Positions 12,908 to 19,061 of a DNA stretch of 33,704 bases are shown here, piece by piece; the first letter of the stretch is position 1, and each line of letters begins with the position of its first letter. A program made the position numbers and the translations under genes. This DNA is from a virus: positions 1-33,704 of IMG/VR virus record IMGVR_UViG_3300027704_000079. The stretch is one strand, 5' to 3'. Under the pieces are notes generated by a model. That model was not told where the DNA came from. It did not search any database and saw only the letters and a program-made list of their open reading frames with translations.

Positions 12908-14374
12908 TTACTGCTCTTTTCCTCTTAATGCGGAGTGCACTTTTTTAATCCCAGCTGGGTTAACTCCAGCGCCATCAAGAGCACTATTAACGTCTTCCCA
13001 CTTAAACAGGGCCTTTTGCCTAGCAAGCGCCTTACGATCGAGGCTCACAACAGCTTCATTCATATTTCCGTAGTCATATTCGATATCTTGCCAAACAGTA
13101 AGGATTTGACTAACAGCTTTTTCCATAATCTTAAAGTCTCCATCATACTTTCCGTCAAGTGTTTTATTAACACCCTTATTCAAGTTTGATCCAACTTTAA
13201 GAGAGCGCTCGAGGCTGTATATCTTCTCTTGCGCCTGTTTTACGCCTGAACTCATTTTAGCTGCTTCGGCAAGAGCGCCTCCATTCACTTCTACAGCTTC
13301 ATCGGCCGATTCTCGCTTTTTCCGCTTTGCCTCTTTAGCCTTTTTGATGCGCTCTTTAGCCTTTTTTAATCTTTCGCGATCAGCAGCCTTCTTATCTATT
13401 TTGTCAGCTTTTTTGCCTGCGCGGTCAGCACGACCTGAAATAGTAACACGCGACTTGATGGCACTTCCGATTTTACCAAGTATACCTTCCAACATTTCGT
13501 CGAGTTCTTCATCAGACATTTCTTCAATGTTAGTGGTTTCATCTTCGAGGATGTAGTTAATAGCTTCATCAATATCCTCTTCTTGCAACTTAGCCAATTT
13601 GCTCTTTAACATATCAACATACTTGGTGCCGCCGTATTGCTTAACTCTACTAGGATCTGGATTATTAATCAGATTTTCGAGGTCTTTCGCGAGGGCTTTT
13701 TTATCAGGCGATGCTTCGCTAAGATCGATGTCTTCCTTTTTAAATTTATTTAACGCCTCTTTTAGATACTCCTTTTTGATAAACGCTTCAACCGCTTTAG
13801 CAACGTCAGATATAGTCATCTTATCATTAAAATCGACGATAGTCTTGCTTGAATCGGCATCAACGACACTGGTGTTTCCGTCAATATAGACATCAAACTT
13901 CTTTTGTGCGGGCTTTGATAACAACTTTTTAATTGCTTTCCGAAAAGCTACCGTTGCTTTAAATGAGCTACCATGCACAAAATAATTTACTTCATCTCCG
14001 TCACGGTTTTTAGTCTTTCCAAGGACTTTGTCATTAGGTCTTATAGCTTCTTCAATTGAAGTTGATTCACCAAGGATTTTCTTAGCGACTTCAACATCCA
14101 TTTCAGTAGGGAATTTCTTACCTTCAAATTCAAATTCGTCATCACCAGCAACTGCGGCTTTTGCAGCAGCTTTAGTGAATTCGTTGGCCTCTTCAATATC
14201 TTTTTCTTCAAGAGCTGTTGATCCACTTCGCTTATGTTTGTCAATTGAATGAAGATCAACAAAGTCTTTATCAGAATCTTGAACTTTGGTTTCTTTAGTG
14301 GCTTTTCCTTCGCCTAAGAGAACGCGTGATACAGCGTCAGCCAGATTTGCGATCGATTTGTCTTGTGGTTTCAT
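12908..14374 (-). CDS. Large acidic/basic patterned protein, probable head-internal or scaffold-like (488 aa)
   Basis: A long, low-complexity, mostly helical protein. Alternating acidic and Lys/Arg-rich blocks are visible: residues about 265-290 acidic (EMSDEELDEMLEGILG) and about 315-350 very basic with AEEAKRKK-like repeats. A small folded segment lies near residues 120-195 (DGDEVNYFVHGSSFKAT). Several L-x-E sites (SRVLLGE near residue 21, KKILGE near 102) look like cleavage sites of the T4 gp21 prohead protease. It is the first gene after a late promoter and sits next to proteins with capsid-targeting-like N-termini. I infer a virion or prohead component but recognise no family. Confidence 0.7.
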   Translation of the reverse strand: MKPQDKSIANLADAVSRVLLGEGKATKETKVQDSDKDFVDLHSIDKHKRSGSTALEEKDIEEANEFTKAAAKAAVAGDDEFEFEGKKFPTEMDVEVAKKILGESTSIEEAIRPNDKVLGKTKNRDGDEVNYFVHGSSFKATVAFRKAIKKLLSKPAQKKFDVYIDGNTSVVDADSSKTIVDFNDKMTISDVAKAVEAFIKKEYLKEALNKFKKEDIDLSEASPDKKALAKDLENLINNPDPSRVKQYGGTKYVDMLKSKLAKLQEEDIDEAINYILEDETTNIEEMSDEELDEMLEGILGKIGSAIKSRVTISGRADRAGKKADKIDKKAADRERLKKAKERIKKAKEAKRKKRESADEAVEVNGGALAEAAKMSSGVKQAQEKIYSLERSLKVGSNLNKGVNKTLDGKYDGDFKIMEKAVSQILTVWQDIEYDYGNMNEAVVSLDRKALARQKALFKWEDVNSALDGAGVNPAGIKKVHSALRGKEQ

Positions 14375-14382
14375 GATAGTTT

Positions 14383-14390
14383 TATTTATA
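14383..14390 (-). promoter_or_regulatory. Late promoter TATAAATA
   Basis: TATAAATAA on the minus strand, 8 bases before the ATG at 14374. Leader of about 2 bases expected. Confidence 0.8.
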
Positions 14391-14393
14391 TGT

Positions 14394-14756
14394 TTACTCT
14401 GAGTCTTTTAGTTTTTGGAGGCGTTCGGCCTCAGCAGCTTTGATTTTTGGTATCAGCTTCTTCGCGATCTTTTTAATAGCACCCCTTTTCTTTTCAACCT
14501 TTTTATCAAGTTGAGTCTTTTGTGCGAAGGACATTGCCGCGTAACTTTGGCCGTCTGGTATAAATTTTTTGCGGATAATCTCAATAGCTTGTTTCTGTGC
14601 TCTTGCTTTAAGTTTTTCAGGAGAAGCCTTTTTCTTTAATGCCATTTCACGTTTCTTCTTCAGCTTAGGCATTATTCTTTTCATCATACGACTTCTAGCC
14701 ATACGCTGAGCAGGGTTCAACGGCTTTTCTGTGAGGTATTGTTTAAATGATATCAT
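14394..14756 (-). CDS. Highly basic internal-protein-like protein (120 aa)
   Basis: The first nine residues, MISFKQYLTE, match the capsid-targeting pattern of T4 internal proteins (MKTYQEFIAE), with LTE as the possible gp21 protease site. The rest is extremely basic and helical: MARSRMMKRIMPKLKKKRE, then KARAQKQAIEIIRKK and KKIAKKLIPKIKAAEAERL. T4 internal proteins IPI-III are likewise small and basic, packed with the DNA and injected. I infer a similar packaged DNA-binding protein. It is followed by the 488-aa gene after 19 bases containing a late promoter. Confidence 0.75.
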   Translation of the reverse strand: MISFKQYLTEKPLNPAQRMARSRMMKRIMPKLKKKREMALKKKASPEKLKARAQKQAIEIIRKKFIPDGQSYAAMSFAQKTQLDKKVEKKRGAIKKIAKKLIPKIKAAEAERLQKLKDSE

Positions 14757-14760
14757 ATTA

Positions 14761-15069
14761 TTAATCTGGTGTACTGGTGAACATCCACGCTATGGTTCCG
14801 GCTGCTGCTGTTATTATTGCTGATACCGTAGTCCACACAACAGATCTGATTGTTTTAACAGTCGCAGTATTATCATGCTGTATATCCTCAACCTTCCGCA
14901 ATCTATCATCATGATCGAGCATTTTTTGCAAAATCATTCGAGTTGTCTCATCAAGTTTTAAGATTCTTTCTTCGGCCCTAGCTAAAGCGATGACTGCTTC
15001 AGTCATCTTATCAATCTTCTCTTCAATGCGGTCTAGGCGGTGTTTGTCTCCTTGATTCATCTCTGACAT
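14761..15069 (-). CDS. Tail-anchored coiled-coil membrane protein, XhlA-like (102 aa)
   Basis: It starts MSEMNQGDKHRLDRIEEKID. Residues about 8-70 form a heptad coiled coil (HRLDRIEEKIDKMTEAVIAL). Residues about 75-97 form one hydrophobic span (VVWTTVSAIITAAAGTIAWMF) followed by a short tail. The plan matches XhlA/haemolysin-type phage membrane proteins that accompany holins, so a lysis-accessory role is possible. It has its own late promoter 8 bases upstream, which fits a lysis or virion role. No signal peptide. Confidence 0.7.
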   Translation of the reverse strand: MSEMNQGDKHRLDRIEEKIDKMTEAVIALARAEERILKLDETTRMILQKMLDHDDRLRKVEDIQHDNTATVKTIRSVVWTTVSAIITAAAGTIAWMFTSTPD

Positions 15070-15077
15070 TAGATTAA

Positions 15078-15085
15078 TATTTATA
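15078..15085 (-). promoter_or_regulatory. Late promoter TATAAATA
   Basis: TATAAATAT on the minus strand, 8 bases before the ATG at 15069. Confidence 0.8.
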
Positions 15086-15095
15086 CAAATGCGTA

Positions 15096-15956
15096 TTACT
15101 TTGTATTTGTTGATTTAGGAAGGCCTTTACCATACACTACATCGAGTTTTTCTACAAAATGCTTAGTCCCAGTTGAATCAATAATATAATTCGATTTGCG
15201 TTCTTTAATAGTGATCAAGTTACCAGATTCTGTAGATACTTTATCTCCTACATTGAAAATATCGGCCGAGATATACCGCTCACGTTTTTCTGAGAGACTT
15301 GGTAGTTGAACGTGTTTACGAAAGCTAACCATTTCTTTCAAGCCCATCCTCTTTCGAATTAGGTTGAAAAGTATCATGTCCTCTCCATACTCTTTTGGCA
15401 ATCCAGCGCTGAACGCTTTAAAGTCGCCTTCAAGAGCAGCTGCTCTCATCTTAGATGCACTCATTCCCTCAACACCTTCGGCATCGGGGTCACGCTCGCC
15501 TGCCGAGACAACTTCTATGCCATCTTTGAAATCATAAAAGCCGTGACGGGCTTTTGTGCCGTTATATTTCTTAAGCAGTTTTTGAAATTCAGAAATACGG
15601 TCAGAACCAACAACCAGTGTGATGCGGGTGAAACCCTGATCGTGCAGGAGTGACGCTATATCAAGAATATTCTTACCATTCTTATCCTCGATAATATTGC
15701 GGCCGTGCTTAGGAAACATCTTCCGCATAACACGAATTTTTTCTTTATACACAAGAGGATTCTTTTTAGCATCGTTAGATTGAGATGCGTATATACGATA
15801 CTGATTTCCGACTGCAGCTGCCGCGACCTTTTTTATAAGTTTACCGTGACCAACTGTAGGAGGGTTAAAGCGGCCGAAAGTAAATGCTACGGCATTTATG
15901 CTTTCTTCATTAAACTCTTTAAAGCCTTTGATCGTTTTTTTATCTGATTCGTTCAT
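15096..15956 (-). CDS. HxGH-type nucleotidyltransferase with capsid-targeting-like N-terminus (286 aa)
   Basis: The nucleotidyltransferase domain starts near residue 22: FGRFNPPTVGHGKL holds the T/H-x-G-H motif (Thr34 to His37). It is followed by SNDAKKNPLVYKEK, VVGSDRISEF and GVEGMSASKMR, the last corresponding to the ISSTKIR-type ATP-binding motif. Members transfer AMP or CMP, as in NMN adenylyltransferases; substrate unknown. Residues 8-17 (TIKGFKEFNE) resemble the capsid-targeting tag of its neighbours. Residues about 225-286 form a small extra C-terminal domain. The ATG at 15954-15956 overlaps the upstream stop as ATGA; a TTG three codons further up is less likely. It is cotranscribed with the ligase-like gene. 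Confidence 0.85.
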   Translation of the reverse strand: MNESDKKTIKGFKEFNEESINAVAFTFGRFNPPTVGHGKLIKKVAAAAVGNQYRIYASQSNDAKKNPLVYKEKIRVMRKMFPKHGRNIIEDKNGKNILDIASLLHDQGFTRITLVVGSDRISEFQKLLKKYNGTKARHGFYDFKDGIEVVSAGERDPDAEGVEGMSASKMRAAALEGDFKAFSAGLPKEYGEDMILFNLIRKRMGLKEMVSFRKHVQLPSLSEKRERYISADIFNVGDKVSTESGNLITIKERKSNYIIDSTGTKHFVEKLDVVYGKGLPKSTNTK

Positions 15957-17203
15957 CGTTCCCAACCTTTTATTACGTCTGCTGAAAAATTATTTGTAGA
16001 AAATTCTAATCGATCGACTAGTTTGACTGCGCCGTTAGTATTATAGTCAATTGCAACAAATCCTTCTGAACCTGTTACTTTAAAACCCTGTTTTGTTCTA
16101 ATAAATGTATCAATCTCTTTCAGTTTATCTAATTTATTTATAATGATTAATTTAGCATCGACAATAGCATTCATCAACTGGAACATCAAATCTAAGTTTT
16201 TGCGGTTGTTCTTAGAAAAGAATTGCATTTCTTCTTCATGTTTTTTAAGCACTGCTTCTTTACCCTTGGCGCTTTTACGCTTGTCGTACTCTTTTTTGTA
16301 CTTTGTGTCGAACCACGCAATTAGGTCATTCACGTGTTTAGTGGTATTGCCAATCCGCTCTCCTTTCCGGACGAAGGTGTTGCCGAAAGTCTCAATCTTA
16401 ATTGCGAGGGATGGCGTATTCTCTAACTCGTTGAGAGTCGTCGATTTAATCTGTTGAAAGATCTTACCTGCTTTCGAGAGCTGCTGAGTAACTTCATCAG
16501 TATCTGCTTTCGTGAGAGTAGCTGTTCCAGACAAGTTTTTAAGGTCTGCGGCCTGTTGCCAAACACTTGCTTTCTTCTTAAGATTGGAAATATCCACACC
16601 GTAAGATGCGCTCAGCGACTCAAAATCCTTTCCTTTATACGTTGTATGCCACACAACTCCCAGATTCGCTTTACCAATGGTTTTTGCTAATTTAGAATCG
16701 GCAGGAACTGCATACACAAGGGTGTTAGGCTGAAACGTAATGTATTTCTTGCCGTCAATCGTTTCAGCCTCAACATCGCCTTTTGTAAACATGATATCTC
16801 CCTGAATAACATTCTTAATACCAAGATCTTTAAGTTCGTTGAATGCTATCACCAATTTGTCTGCTAGGTCACCTGATGTGTCGTTTCGGACATCAGCCTC
16901 TGACTTATAAACCATTGGATCCTTATTAAAAATGCCTTTTTTTGCTACAAAGAACTTTCCATCAGTTGGATCAACACCTGCAAATACCGCAGGTGCCCCG
17001 TCCCATTTTTCTGTAACGTTAGTTGATGCGCTTGCTTTACCAGCTAGCATGTCTCTTAAAGACCGTAAGGCAAAGATTGCCTCGCGAGCTCCTTTAACTC
17101 CGCCGTAGATAACGCGGTCTTCAATGTGTGTCATGTGGGTGTTTTTCCCAGCCTTTGACGCTTCAGTTATGCTATCGCTAAGATGCTCTTTAAATGATTT
17201 CAT
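15953..17203 (-). CDS. Ligase-superfamily covalent nucleotidyltransferase, DUF6267-like (416 aa)
   Basis: Motif I EKWDGAP holds the AMP-accepting Lys66 with Asp68-Gly69. FFVAKKGIF follows; VIQGDIMF near residue 137 is in the motif III position; EGFVAID at 380-386 is motif IV; and AVKLVDR with Lys394 is motif V. The order and residues match DNA/RNA ligases and capping enzymes. The family is found in marine T4-like phages (I recall it as DUF6267). Residues 1-17, MKSFKEHLSDSITEASK, match the capsid-targeting pattern with SITE as a possible protease site, so the enzyme may travel in the capsid. The start overlaps the upstream stop by one base (TAATG). Confidence 0.75.
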   Translation of the reverse strand: MKSFKEHLSDSITEASKAGKNTHMTHIEDRVIYGGVKGAREAIFALRSLRDMLAGKASASTNVTEKWDGAPAVFAGVDPTDGKFFVAKKGIFNKDPMVYKSEADVRNDTSGDLADKLVIAFNELKDLGIKNVIQGDIMFTKGDVEAETIDGKKYITFQPNTLVYAVPADSKLAKTIGKANLGVVWHTTYKGKDFESLSASYGVDISNLKKKASVWQQAADLKNLSGTATLTKADTDEVTQQLSKAGKIFQQIKSTTLNELENTPSLAIKIETFGNTFVRKGERIGNTTKHVNDLIAWFDTKYKKEYDKRKSAKGKEAVLKKHEEEMQFFSKNNRKNLDLMFQLMNAIVDAKLIIINKLDKLKEIDTFIRTKQGFKVTGSEGFVAIDYNTNGAVKLVDRLEFSTNNFSADVIKGWER

Positions 17204-19029
17204 TATTTTAAGAATTTGATAAATTTATCATATGGTATTTTTTTAGTTCCTTCAAAGTTGAAAGAGAAACGACCAGATGCGTTTGTTCCTGTTCTAAATG
17301 CAGTGTAATAAATTTCGTTATCAAGAATATCGCTCACGACATACAAGTCAATATTCAAATATTTGTTATCTTGTGTGTTCAATCGTATTCCAGATATTGG
17401 AAATTGGGTATCTTTCAATTTCTCTCTTTTCTTATCGGCGAAGCTTCCTGCAGAACCTAAATATTCCCACGACTTTCCTGATGAAGTTTTGCCATATACC
17501 TTATAAAGCGGAAGGGATGTTTTACCGAAATAAACCTCTTTATGCATATCAACAACCGAATTTAATATTTCATCAGTATCAGTCGACCCAATAATCATTT
17601 CGACCGCGGATAATGAATATGAATTCGATAGTAGTTTAGAAACAATGTCGATATTTAGTTCCTTTGAATTTTTAAATTGTGTTATTGTAGTTCCAGTCTT
17701 ATATAACAAATAGTCTTTTGCATCATAGAGATTTATTATATCAGATTTTTTCTTTTGAACTTCCTTGACCAATTTGTTCGCGTCCTTGATTTTAATTTTT
17801 TCCAATTTAGCATTGAGACTTTCTCCAGTTTTTTTCTCAATGAGGTAATTACTGTCGTCGCAATATTTTTCAAGCAAAAAGATATCGTCATTATTTAGTC
17901 CAAAAAGTTTTTGGTACCTTTTAAACACATTCTTCTTTTCTAGACTATTAGCTTTTTTAAACCTATTTGTGATATTAGCAAAGAACTTGCCGACTGATTG
18001 TGACACTTTAGCTAAGGTATCCTTTACTTTGGAAAATGCTTTCTTTAAAAATGTAATAGGGCCTTCATTCAGTTCCATATCTAAAGATTCGTTAACGATA
18101 TCGTTGAAATAATCGTTATACGACGGTAGACTATATTTTTTAATAATATACGATGTTACCTTACCTAATTGAGCCTTATCAGCTGATTTTTTCAATGATA
18201 CTTGAATAAAAGTAATCTTACTTTTTTCTCCTTTTATGACTCCATTATCATCAAAAGTGAAAGTATCAGTTTTCATTGCCGCGATGGTCGTGGCTGCATC
18301 GGCCGATGAAACGATCATATCTGCAGTATTAGCCTTTACGCCAGTGATTTTTACATTTTCGTTATCTTCTTCGGCTGAATAATAGTCTGTAATTCTGCCG
18401 TGGATAATATTGGCTTTGAATTTTACAACATCCATAAATTCTGCCATACCGCTAATAAGACCAACTAATTCAAGGAAATTCTTAGATGTCATCGAATCGA
18501 GTTTTGAAAGGAGCGTCGATTTACCTTTACTGTCCCAATCTTGACCATTGCCGAGGATATTCTTTACATTCGCAATGACGGTCTCTCGTGATTCAATATC
18601 GTTTTCGATATCTTTATAGTAAACACCAATAGCTTGAACAGTTTCGAGCGTAGGAGTATCTTTACCCCAATTGATATCTGAACCTAGTTTTAAGATATTA
18701 TAATACGAGTCAACTGCTTTTTCATACCAAGCGACTGAGCCGACGGCCTTTCCTTCGGGCGAATCTAAAATTTCAAATGCAGCTCGGAGCGCTTTCTTAT
18801 TATCACCAAATACCACTGCGTCGGCAGGAATTTTAATAGGATCCAGTTTACTAAAAACTGGACTATCTGGCAATTTAATTGTAGAACCGATTCTGTTTTT
18901 AAATGTGTCTACTTTATCGCTTTTTAATGTAAAGAGCGAGCCTTCTCCGTATTTTCCAGCACTTACAGTAGCCTCGATGATCATATCAGAGGTTTCTTTA
19001 TATTCTTTAAACGACAGCATATTTCCCAT
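17203..19029 (-). CDS. Putative packaged protein with capsid-targeting-like N-terminus (608 aa)
   Basis: It starts MGNMLSFKEYKETSDMIIEA; the second ATG (19020, MLSFKEY) may be the true start. SFKEY plus IIE-A fits the targeting and gp21-cleavage pattern. Around residues 230-295, NTADMIVSS followed later by ITFIQVSLKKSADKAQLGK has the spacing of a PD-(D/E)XK-like core (Asp, then Q-x-x-x-K), seen in several phage proteins; low confidence. Residues about 325-380 are amphipathic and basic (LKKAFSKVKDTLAKVSQSVG) after a second possible site, ELNEG. The C-terminal 150 residues are beta-rich. Late promoter 24 bases upstream. Function unknown. Confidence 0.65.
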   Translation of the reverse strand: MGNMLSFKEYKETSDMIIEATVSAGKYGEGSLFTLKSDKVDTFKNRIGSTIKLPDSPVFSKLDPIKIPADAVVFGDNKKALRAAFEILDSPEGKAVGSVAWYEKAVDSYYNILKLGSDINWGKDTPTLETVQAIGVYYKDIENDIESRETVIANVKNILGNGQDWDSKGKSTLLSKLDSMTSKNFLELVGLISGMAEFMDVVKFKANIIHGRITDYYSAEEDNENVKITGVKANTADMIVSSADAATTIAAMKTDTFTFDDNGVIKGEKSKITFIQVSLKKSADKAQLGKVTSYIIKKYSLPSYNDYFNDIVNESLDMELNEGPITFLKKAFSKVKDTLAKVSQSVGKFFANITNRFKKANSLEKKNVFKRYQKLFGLNNDDIFLLEKYCDDSNYLIEKKTGESLNAKLEKIKIKDANKLVKEVQKKKSDIINLYDAKDYLLYKTGTTITQFKNSKELNIDIVSKLLSNSYSLSAVEMIIGSTDTDEILNSVVDMHKEVYFGKTSLPLYKVYGKTSSGKSWEYLGSAGSFADKKREKLKDTQFPISGIRLNTQDNKYLNIDLYVVSDILDNEIYYTAFRTGTNASGRFSFNFEGTKKIPYDKFIKFLK

Positions 19030-19053: not shown

Positions 19054-19061
19054 TATTTATA
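19054..19061 (-). promoter_or_regulatory. Late promoter TATAAATA
   Basis: TATAAATAG on the minus strand, 24 bases before the ATG at 19029. It opens the unit 19029 to 15096. Confidence 0.8.

Follow-up and report, generated by a model that had tools for sequence, protein, structure and literature searches.

A T4-type N-terminal leader marks a probable internal-protein cassette in a marine T4-like phage

Which proteins of a marine phage travel with its DNA into the next host, and can they be recognized by a peptide at their N terminus? This question is raised by a minus-strand gene block in IMG/VR virus record IMGVR_UViG_3300027704_000079, the complete 33,704-base sequence of which was analyzed (hereafter, the window). 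UvsX, a gp41-type helicase, DNA polymerase, and ribonucleotide reductase are encoded in the window, and the best match of its DUF6267 protein among phage records is from phage C48C1 (Kyanoviridae; 58% identity); its source is a marine T4-like phage. The block, located between the helicase and the reductase genes, encodes in this order a protein of 608 amino acids (aa), a DUF6267 protein (416 aa), a cytidylyltransferase (286 aa), a 102-aa protein, a 120-aa protein, and a 488-aa open reading frame (ORF). The first three and the 120-aa protein have in common a short leader, or tag, of the form M-x-x-[F/L]-x-x-[Y/F/H]-[I/L]-x-E. A preliminary description of the sequence had presented these four as adjacent proteins with a common peptide at or near the N terminus. 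All four ORFs indeed lie on the minus strand where it had placed them, and the peptide is shared, but they are not strictly adjacent because the untagged 102-aa ORF intervenes; the peptide is N-terminal in all four, but starts only at residue 8 in the 286-aa protein. The tagged genes and their leaders are the following:

17203–19029, minus strand: 608-aa tagged protein in a variable slot upstream of the ligase-like gene (ORF call; MGNMLSFKEYKETSDMIIEA)
18973–19020, minus strand: tag MLSFKEYKETSDMIIE of the 608-aa protein, residues 4–19 (sequence)
15953–17203, minus strand: 416-aa DUF6267 protein with ligase-like motifs (ORF call and PF19782; MKSFKEHLSDSITEA)
17162–17203, minus strand: tag MKSFKEHLSDSITE of the DUF6267 protein, just ahead of its conserved domain (KNTHMTHIED)
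15096–15956, minus strand: 286-aa HxGH-type cytidylyltransferase, putatively NMNAT-like (PF01467 and phrog_395; MNESDKKTIKGFKEFNEES)
15903–15935, minus strand: tag TIKGFKEFNEE of the cytidylyltransferase, residues 8–18
14394–14756, minus strand: 120-aa tagged protein rich in Lys and Arg (composition and phrog_23027; MISFKQYLTEKP)
14727–14756, minus strand: tag MISFKQYLTE of the 120-aa protein (21.8 bits)

The block is probably an internal-protein cassette of a T4-like marine phage, that is, a set of injected cargo proteins, head packaging being the best-supported explanation of the shared peptide. The preliminary description had already read the peptide as a capsid-targeting signal, which is well supported on three counts: its residue positions match those of the mapped T4 IPIII signal, it is found on many apparently non-homologous proteins, and for one of the four, the cytidylyltransferase, tagged relatives are present in published virion proteomes. 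For this phage itself, packaging is an inference, as are cleavage, injection (by the T4 precedent), and what the enzymes do.

The leader was quantified in ∼100 loci, mostly of near relatives. DUF6267 matches in IMG/VR numbered at least 597; the best 80 were used, so that the tag rates given here are valid for near relatives, together with 15 loci for the 608-aa protein and four named phages. A seven-residue profile was trained on the DUF6267 leaders of the window phage and its relatives (3 of the 63 7-mers, scoring <3, were probably mis-picked and were retained), and the cut was set at 9 bits. Tested were non-DUF6267 ORFs of at least 80 aa, with the core starting at residues 2–6 after the first start codon; L003, a copy of a stretch of the window, was left out. 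With near-duplicate loci retained, 103 of 1,443 ORFs reached the cut at their first start, versus 5 of 6,268 internal ATGs (1.15 expected). When near-duplicates were merged at 70% identity, the counts were 64 of 1,105 versus 4 of 4,542 (0.97 expected). Within the window, MISFKQYLTE of the 120-aa protein had the equal best score among all tested ORFs (21.8 bits), followed by the leaders of the DUF6267 protein (12.1), the cytidylyltransferase (7.2), and the 608-aa protein (0.6); thus, two of the four leaders are weak taken alone. Outside the window, 74 of 89 DUF6267 genes carried a match of at least 9 bits ahead of the conserved domain, and so did 54 of 66 cytidylyltransferase homologues ahead of theirs. 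Among the 15 DUF6267 genes missed, 13 had a variant leader or a longer spacer (e.g., MKSFTNYVPLQEAA); those of HTVC008M and S-CRM01 had no clear leader.

An alternative is that the peptide has some other role, for instance as an N-terminal helix binding membranes or as an element related to translation. Matches were limited to the first residues, falling from 103 (residues 2–6) to 27, 7, and 2 in the successive bins of six. In the 63 DUF6267 tag DNAs scoring at least 9 bits, phenylalanine was encoded by 40 TTT and 10 TTC, and glutamate by 52 GAA and 11 GAG; as synonymous codons vary, the constraint acts on the peptide. Both features argue against such a role, to which we return with the proteomes. 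Internal matches of at least 12 bits numbered 15 versus 6.5 expected in shuffles, which makes internal tags as cleavable linkers only a hint. In two loci (L010, 420–1952; L099, 2481–4013), DUF6267 is preceded by a fused domain, with the leader retained at the junction (SFSDYLSEASKAGKN).

The leader is concentrated around the ligase-like DUF6267 gene. Downstream of it, 48 of 170 ORFs were tagged within 3 kb, 9 of 165 at 3–6 kb, and 3 of 172 beyond 6 kb; upstream, the respective counts were 24 of 211, 1 of 150, and 0 of 193, and on the opposite strand of DUF6267 loci only 1 of 82 ORFs was tagged. These counts, again, retain near-duplicates; without them the pattern was the same, with 27/113, 3/116, and 2/135 downstream, 17/146, 1/92, and 0/163 upstream, and 1/81 on the opposite strand. 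That no tag occurs on ORFs located >6 kb upstream in these loci argues against the notion that the shared N termini merely reflect the N-terminal composition of AT-rich phage genes. The related explanation, common descent in place of a signal, draws on the linkage of the cytidylyltransferase and DUF6267 genes, which are fused in some phages, and on a single-linkage family of 373 ORFs that takes in both along with further tagged genes. When at least the first 16 residues were removed, though, tagged proteins were still distributed over 22 of 569 loose, unlinked families (any start in the first 30 residues), and over 39 of 696 clusters at 70% coverage counted in the same way. A stricter count (first start only, DUF6267 excluded) gave 19 of 569 families, in which single-member matches may include chance. 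As far as can be judged from these groupings, the mature domains are non-homologous and have only the leader in common, and we regard descent or composition as a very improbable explanation.

In Synechococcus phage S-CRM01, five consecutive genes (127c–131c; L008, 9848–14426) all carry a leader of this kind: MKLFNQFFKEA (cytidylyltransferase), MKKLDQFLTEK (129c), MISFDQFLSEK (kinase), and MNFSEFLEA (131c), with LSLDSFIKEA further in for 128c; the neighboring DUF6267 gene (132c) has none. In Methylophilales phage Melnitz-3, an isolated relative, DUF6267 is tagged, reading INFSKYITED following a TTG, as is the protein encoded upstream of it (MQGFKTFLSEA), and the cytidylyltransferase bears a weaker variant (MKKFSEIIEA).

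How does this leader compare with the T4 signal? The first ten residues of T4 IPIII are enough for head incorporation; targeting depends on residues 4 and 7, and processing on residues 8 and 10; aspartate at position 10 blocks cleavage but leaves targeting intact, and gp21 cleaves at L/I-X-E (PMC9026906). Aligned with this map, the constrained positions of the marine leader are the same ones. In tags of at least 9 bits, Y/F/H follows three residues past F/L, I/L comes next, and E two further; F/L is most commonly at residue 4 (64 of 130 non-DUF6267 and 52 of 71 DUF6267 tags). In the window, positions 4 and 7 are F4/Y7 in the 120-aa protein and F4/H7 in the DUF6267 protein, and the 608-aa protein and the cytidylyltransferase keep the F-x-x-[F/Y] spacing with a later start. 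Three window tags contain L/I-x-E (LTE, ITE, and IIE). The cytidylyltransferase tag reads FNE/NEE there, while L/I-x-E (LTE or LVE, for example) occurs in many relatives of this enzyme; several relatives start directly with the peptide (MKSFKQFNEEN, MIKGFKQFNEEN). The DUF6267 leader, MKSFKEHLSD-SITE-A, offers a second site, ITE, four residues past D10, much like T4 IPI (N terminus MKTFKEFTSTTTPVSTITEA); IPIII and IPII begin with MKTYQEFIAEA. On the marine profile, T4 ipIII, ipII, and ipI ranked second to fourth of 26 T4-region genes.

Are proteins with this leader found in virions? In S-CREM2, 52 of 219 proteins were detected in the virion (PMC10665884, Table 3), and six of these show the leader at their N terminus by eye: the cytidylyltransferase (MKNFSSFLTEA), an S-AdoMet lyase-family protein (MKDFDSFLEE), an APH-like kinase (MKRFDAFLTEE), gp13 (MKDLHSFLTE), gp15 (MNFSEFNES), and gp136 (MQTFSMFFSE). 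A further virion protein, gp12 (L004, 7704–10313), annotated Cas9/Csn1, carries it at about residue 19; no nuclease family was found for gp12 in Pfam at E ≤ 1. At a profile score of at least 7.9, a cut that leaves out gp12 and gp15, five of six proteins were in the virion versus 52 of 219 overall (p = 0.0032), and five of six versus 28 of 195 when recognized structural genes were set aside (p = 0.00024). Virion association was tried at three cuts (7, 7.9, and 9). Three regular expressions gave p = 0.0026, 0.0032, and 0.0007 on S-CREM2, but were composed after viewing its N termini, so that the profile test is the independent one. The cytidylyltransferase of S-SM1 (T4-GC190; MKKFSAFLNEA) was likewise detected in the virion (PMC3037559). 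That of S-PM2, assigned to the same cluster, has no leader at the annotated start and is named among the proteins not detected in the S-PM2 virion (PMC3037559), a weak negative because the same study missed seven known structural proteins. S-CREM2 gp87, the DUF6267 protein of this phage, is without a leader and absent from the virion list. In these few cases, virion presence tracks the leader.

Three side observations concern tagged proteins of these and other phages. The S-SM1 cytidylyltransferase (L130, 8256–9419) and the S-CREM2 kinase (L004, 10579–12846) have a short module in common after the leader (GYGRYADPSGNVTH and GFGYWADKNTGKITH). A second leader-bearing spot is located near the terminase genes of S-CREM2 (L006, 9301–10014) and S-SCSM1 (L132, 44215–45287); from this spot, S-CREM2 gp136 and S-SCSM1 ORF31 (MPFKNFLWDE) are virion proteins, and S-SCSM1 ORF30 (MKTFKQFMSES) is not flagged as one. 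Gp060 of Caulobacter phage Cr30 (L137, 10344–10664), a 106-aa protein with the N terminus MKTFKQFFNES, gave weak, below-cut-off matches to PARP and RNA 2′-phosphotransferase (ADP-ribosyltransferase-like), reminiscent of the packaged T4 Alt.

Several observations weigh against an injected cassette. The restriction of the tag rates to near relatives is one and the weakness of the S-PM2 negative another. The T4 internal proteins score only 2.3–3.0 bits on the marine profile, far under the 9-bit cut, and gene 57B, which does not encode an internal protein, comes first at 4.9 bits. The window cytidylyltransferase tag lacks L/I two residues before E, and position 10 of the window DUF6267 tag is D. 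The DUF6267 proteins of S-SM1, S-CRM01, S-CREM2, and S-PM2 bear no tag, and in HTVC008M both DUF6267 and the cytidylyltransferase lack a clear tag; thus, the ligase-like protein is not necessarily cargo in every phage. In the proteome papers considered, as far as their available text extends, no DUF6267 protein was reported in a virion. As to a ligase, hhalign of DUF6267 against T4 RnlA and RnlB, with single sequences only, gave 0.2% and 0.1%. The S-CREM2 association is weaker at 9 bits or more (3 of 4; p = 0.042), and gp175 (55 aa), which scores second highest and is the sole miss of the six, was not detected. S-SCSM1 showed no significant association, whether at 7.9 bits or more (1 of 2; p = 0.31), at 7 or more (2 of 3; p = 0.076), or with the three regular expressions (p = 0.28, 0.31, and 0.43). 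With only two S-SCSM1 proteins at 7.9 or above, the cytidylyltransferase (MKSFLQFLKEA) in the virion and the other not flagged, this phage backs the enzyme but not the statistics (its record flags 48 coding sequences as virion proteins; the paper states 45). The authors of the S-CREM2 and S-SCSM1 proteomes, moreover, warn that non-structural proteins may have co-purified (PMC10665884 and PMC9602691). Hence, the tagged proteins on the virion lists could be abundant late products carried along during purification, with the peptide serving another role as considered above, an explanation to which the non-significant S-SCSM1 result also lends itself. That the constrained residues are precisely those of the T4 signal speaks against it, as do the variable codons and the confinement to the first residues, and we consider it improbable.

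Even a true docking signal may not entail delivery: the peptide could bring proteins onto the prohead core for assembly only, as scaffold or core helpers that are then degraded or lost, so that nothing useful is injected. T4 core proteins are cut into fragments by the same protease, and IPIII also affects head assembly (PMC9026906); the Lys/Arg-rich 120-aa protein could be of this type. The S-CREM2 proteins resembling enzymes, namely, the S-AdoMet lyase-family protein, the APH-like kinase (by annotation), and the cytidylyltransferase, are in contrast found in finished virions, and the gene upstream of DUF6267 differs strongly between loci. We therefore judge a role in assembly alone to be unlikely, if a little less so than co-purification, and retain injected cargo as the explanation of the block.

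What might this cargo do? The preliminary description had named a ligase-type protein and a nucleotidyltransferase, and the latter assignment holds: the 286-aa protein matches PF01467 above the cut-off (26.3 versus 21 bits) and phrog_395 (E = 1.8e-67). Its start overlaps the DUF6267 stop (ATGA). The N-P...G-H and S-A...R columns are invariant in the alignment (A5), the window protein reading PTVGH, with T for the first H of HxGH, where S-CREM2 has PHKGH; no sequence match was found in PDB at E ≤ 0.01. Two virion papers name the enzyme NMNAT or NMNAT homologue (PMC9602691 and PMC10665884), and a putative NMNAT-like enzyme is plausible from these motifs. In three loci (L014, L090, and L092), the cytidylyltransferase is extended by a Zeta-toxin/AAA_33 P-loop domain. 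DUF5824 matched 9 of 10 cytidylyltransferases scanned, above the cut-off (25) in six; of the three matches below it, two were at 18–21.5 bits and one at 24.8.

The ligase assignment, by comparison, is carried by motifs, the profile and fold searches being negative or inconclusive. The 416-aa protein is a clear member of PF19782 (E = 2.4e-102; 343.5 bits versus a cut-off of 27) and contains K66WDG, KKGIF, E380GFVAI, and K394LVD, of which K66-W-D-G, E380-G-x-V, and K394 are invariant columns. KxDG, EGxV, and K we take to be motifs I, IV, and V. The ordered pattern KxDG...EGxV...K was matched 81 times among 1,752 proteins, by 79 of 93 DUF6267 proteins and two shortened DUF6267 ORFs; 14 of the 93 fail it. 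T4 RnlA matches and RnlB does not, but the pattern is post hoc: its first version missed RnlA and was then loosened. In a comparison of the DUF6267 profile, no nucleic-acid ligase was among the 25 Pfam families listed out of 46. In the AlphaFold model (predicted local distance difference test [pLDDT] score, 77.7), the motif regions are separated by a helical stretch of ∼140 residues, to which most fold-comparison rows align, and Foldseek with this model returned nothing at E ≤ 0.001. VIA-align placed T4 RNA ligase 2 at rank 11 (Z = 6.0; root-mean-square deviation [rmsd], 16.2; 172 residues aligned) and the Sulfolobus solfataricus DNA ligase at rank 49 (Z = 4.6; rmsd, 5.0; 108 aligned); unrelated helical rows scored as high. 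A viral fold library gave 13 matches at E ≤ 0.001, all of them phage proteins: some annotated as cytidylyltransferase-containing, one NrdB, and several unnamed. A ligase-like protein is thus plausible from the motifs, which the profile and fold comparisons do not confirm.

The 608-aa protein has 14 homologous ORFs in the IMG/VR loci, one of them 100% identical. No phage record matched at E ≤ 0.01, no Pfam family was above cut-off, no PDB sequence matched at E ≤ 1, and the AlphaFold model (pLDDT, 42.5) is unusable. Its leader, SFxDYxE...IxEA, is kept in all 13 homologues with an N terminus, the identical copy aside, and in a nine-row alignment of the family (A4) S6, F7, Y10, E12, I17, E19, A20, and T21 are invariant. 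A TADMI...VSLK stretch, considered as a possible nuclease motif, had no Pfam support and is not claimed as one. The gene directly upstream of DUF6267 is often tagged, and its start differs between loci; the 608-aa protein occupies this variable slot. The 120-aa protein is rich in Lys and Arg (28 K, 9 R, 3 D, and 8 E; K+R, 37 of 120) and matches phrog_23027 (E = 7.1e-15). Its homologues come from 22 viral loci, and phage C48C1 has a similar gene.

Is the block organized for late expression? Three late promoters in or beside it had been described; three TATAAATA sites do lie just 5′ of ORFs, but the count is four, the fourth being inside the 416-aa ORF. The window contains eight exact copies of TATAAATA versus 3.45 expected, a number reached in 3 of 100 shuffles, and four of the eight are on the coding strand within or beside the block:

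19054–19061, minus strand: TATAAATA late-promoter-like site upstream of the 608-aa ORF
16135–16142, minus strand: TATAAATA late-promoter-like site within the DUF6267 (416-aa) ORF
15078–15085, minus strand: TATAAATA late-promoter-like site upstream of the 102-aa ORF
14761–15069, minus strand: untagged 102-aa coiled-coil-like ORF with a hydrophobic C-terminal stretch (DUF7201, 22.6 bits; cut-off, 27)
14383–14390, minus strand: TATAAATA late-promoter-like site upstream of the 488-aa ORF

The 488-aa ORF (12908–14374) at the block end, preceded by the last of these sites, has many short acidic IEEA, LSEA, and IDEA stretches; searches with it gave neither a PHROG match at E ≤ 0.001 nor a Pfam family over the cut-off. 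A scan of 20 window proteins revealed no capsid protein and no prohead protease, so that the protease of this phage itself was not among them, and megablast of the block at the DNA level matched no phage record.

Taken together, the four proteins would be made late in infection, and the N-terminal peptide would dock them onto the prohead core. A gp21-type prohead protease would cut the peptide after L/I-x-E where the site exists, and the mature proteins would stay packaged beside the DNA and accompany it into the next host. In the first minutes of infection, the DUF6267 protein and the NMNAT-like enzyme might then mend nucleic acid or nicotinamide adenine dinucleotide (NAD), a tentative proposal even if it is the most likely function for the pair; the preliminary description had suggested that the two could repair such damage when caused by host defenses. 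The NMNAT-like enzyme of some relatives has an added polynucleotide-kinase-like P-loop domain. On balance, we favor a general head-loading code, in which a T4-type leader moved from gene to gene and turned unrelated proteins, enzymes included, into injected cargo. We also lean toward a particular form of this code at the UvsX/gp41 locus: a standing set (DUF6267, NMNAT-like enzyme, and sometimes a kinase-like domain) plus a fast-changing upstream slot. If this is true, the leader alone would predict which proteins of these phages enter the cell with the genome; the phase of marine T4-like phage infection before expression would become predictable from sequence, and a list of candidate injected counter-defense or repair proteins would be at hand. 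Two cyanophage papers leave undecided whether the NMNAT-like virion enzyme is cargo or contamination (PMC9602691 and PMC10665884), and the leader gives a sequence-based answer. No description of this leader in cyanophages or pelagiphages was found among the papers listed from the open-licence literature, main texts only. T4 internal proteins are already known; new are T4-type leaders on marine phage proteins that are larger and in part enzyme-like, which would show that the T4 targeting code extends far past coliphages.

Among known systems, the closest for the enzyme is the virion NMNAT/cytidylyltransferase of S-SM1, S-CREM2, and S-SCSM1: the family is the same and the N terminus tagged, and theirs was detected by mass spectrometry. 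Where available, the text of these papers does not mention a packaging signal, and two of them allow for contamination; the S-SM1 and S-SCSM1 enzymes have a long linker between tag and catalytic domain, which the window protein lacks. T4 RnlA (gene 63) resembles the DUF6267 protein in the order of its motifs (KxDG, KG[S/I], EG[F/Y]VA, and a motif V lysine), but differs in the absence of profile similarity (0.2%) and of the ∼140-residue helical stretch of the DUF6267 model; we met no report of RnlA as head cargo, none having been sought specifically. Head-packaged, too, are DarA/Hdf of phage P1 and the ejection proteins of SPN3US, the latter partly processed by the prohead protease, although these phages belong to other lineages. 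Close as well are the T4 internal proteins and Alt: residues 4 and 7 of their short N-terminal peptide are aromatic, their mature parts are unrelated, and the gene content varies in T-even phages (PMC3012670 and PMC12373910). IPII and IPIII have L/I-x-E at residues 8–10, and IPI (MKTFKEFTSTTTPVSTITEA) has the same layout as the window DUF6267 protein (MKSFKEHLSDSITEA). T4 internal proteins are small and basic (PMC9026906), whereas three of the four tagged window proteins are of 286–608 aa and two are enzyme-like; and the window block, unlike theirs, lies beside replication genes (UvsX and gp41) in a marine-type phage, where packaging of its products is predicted.

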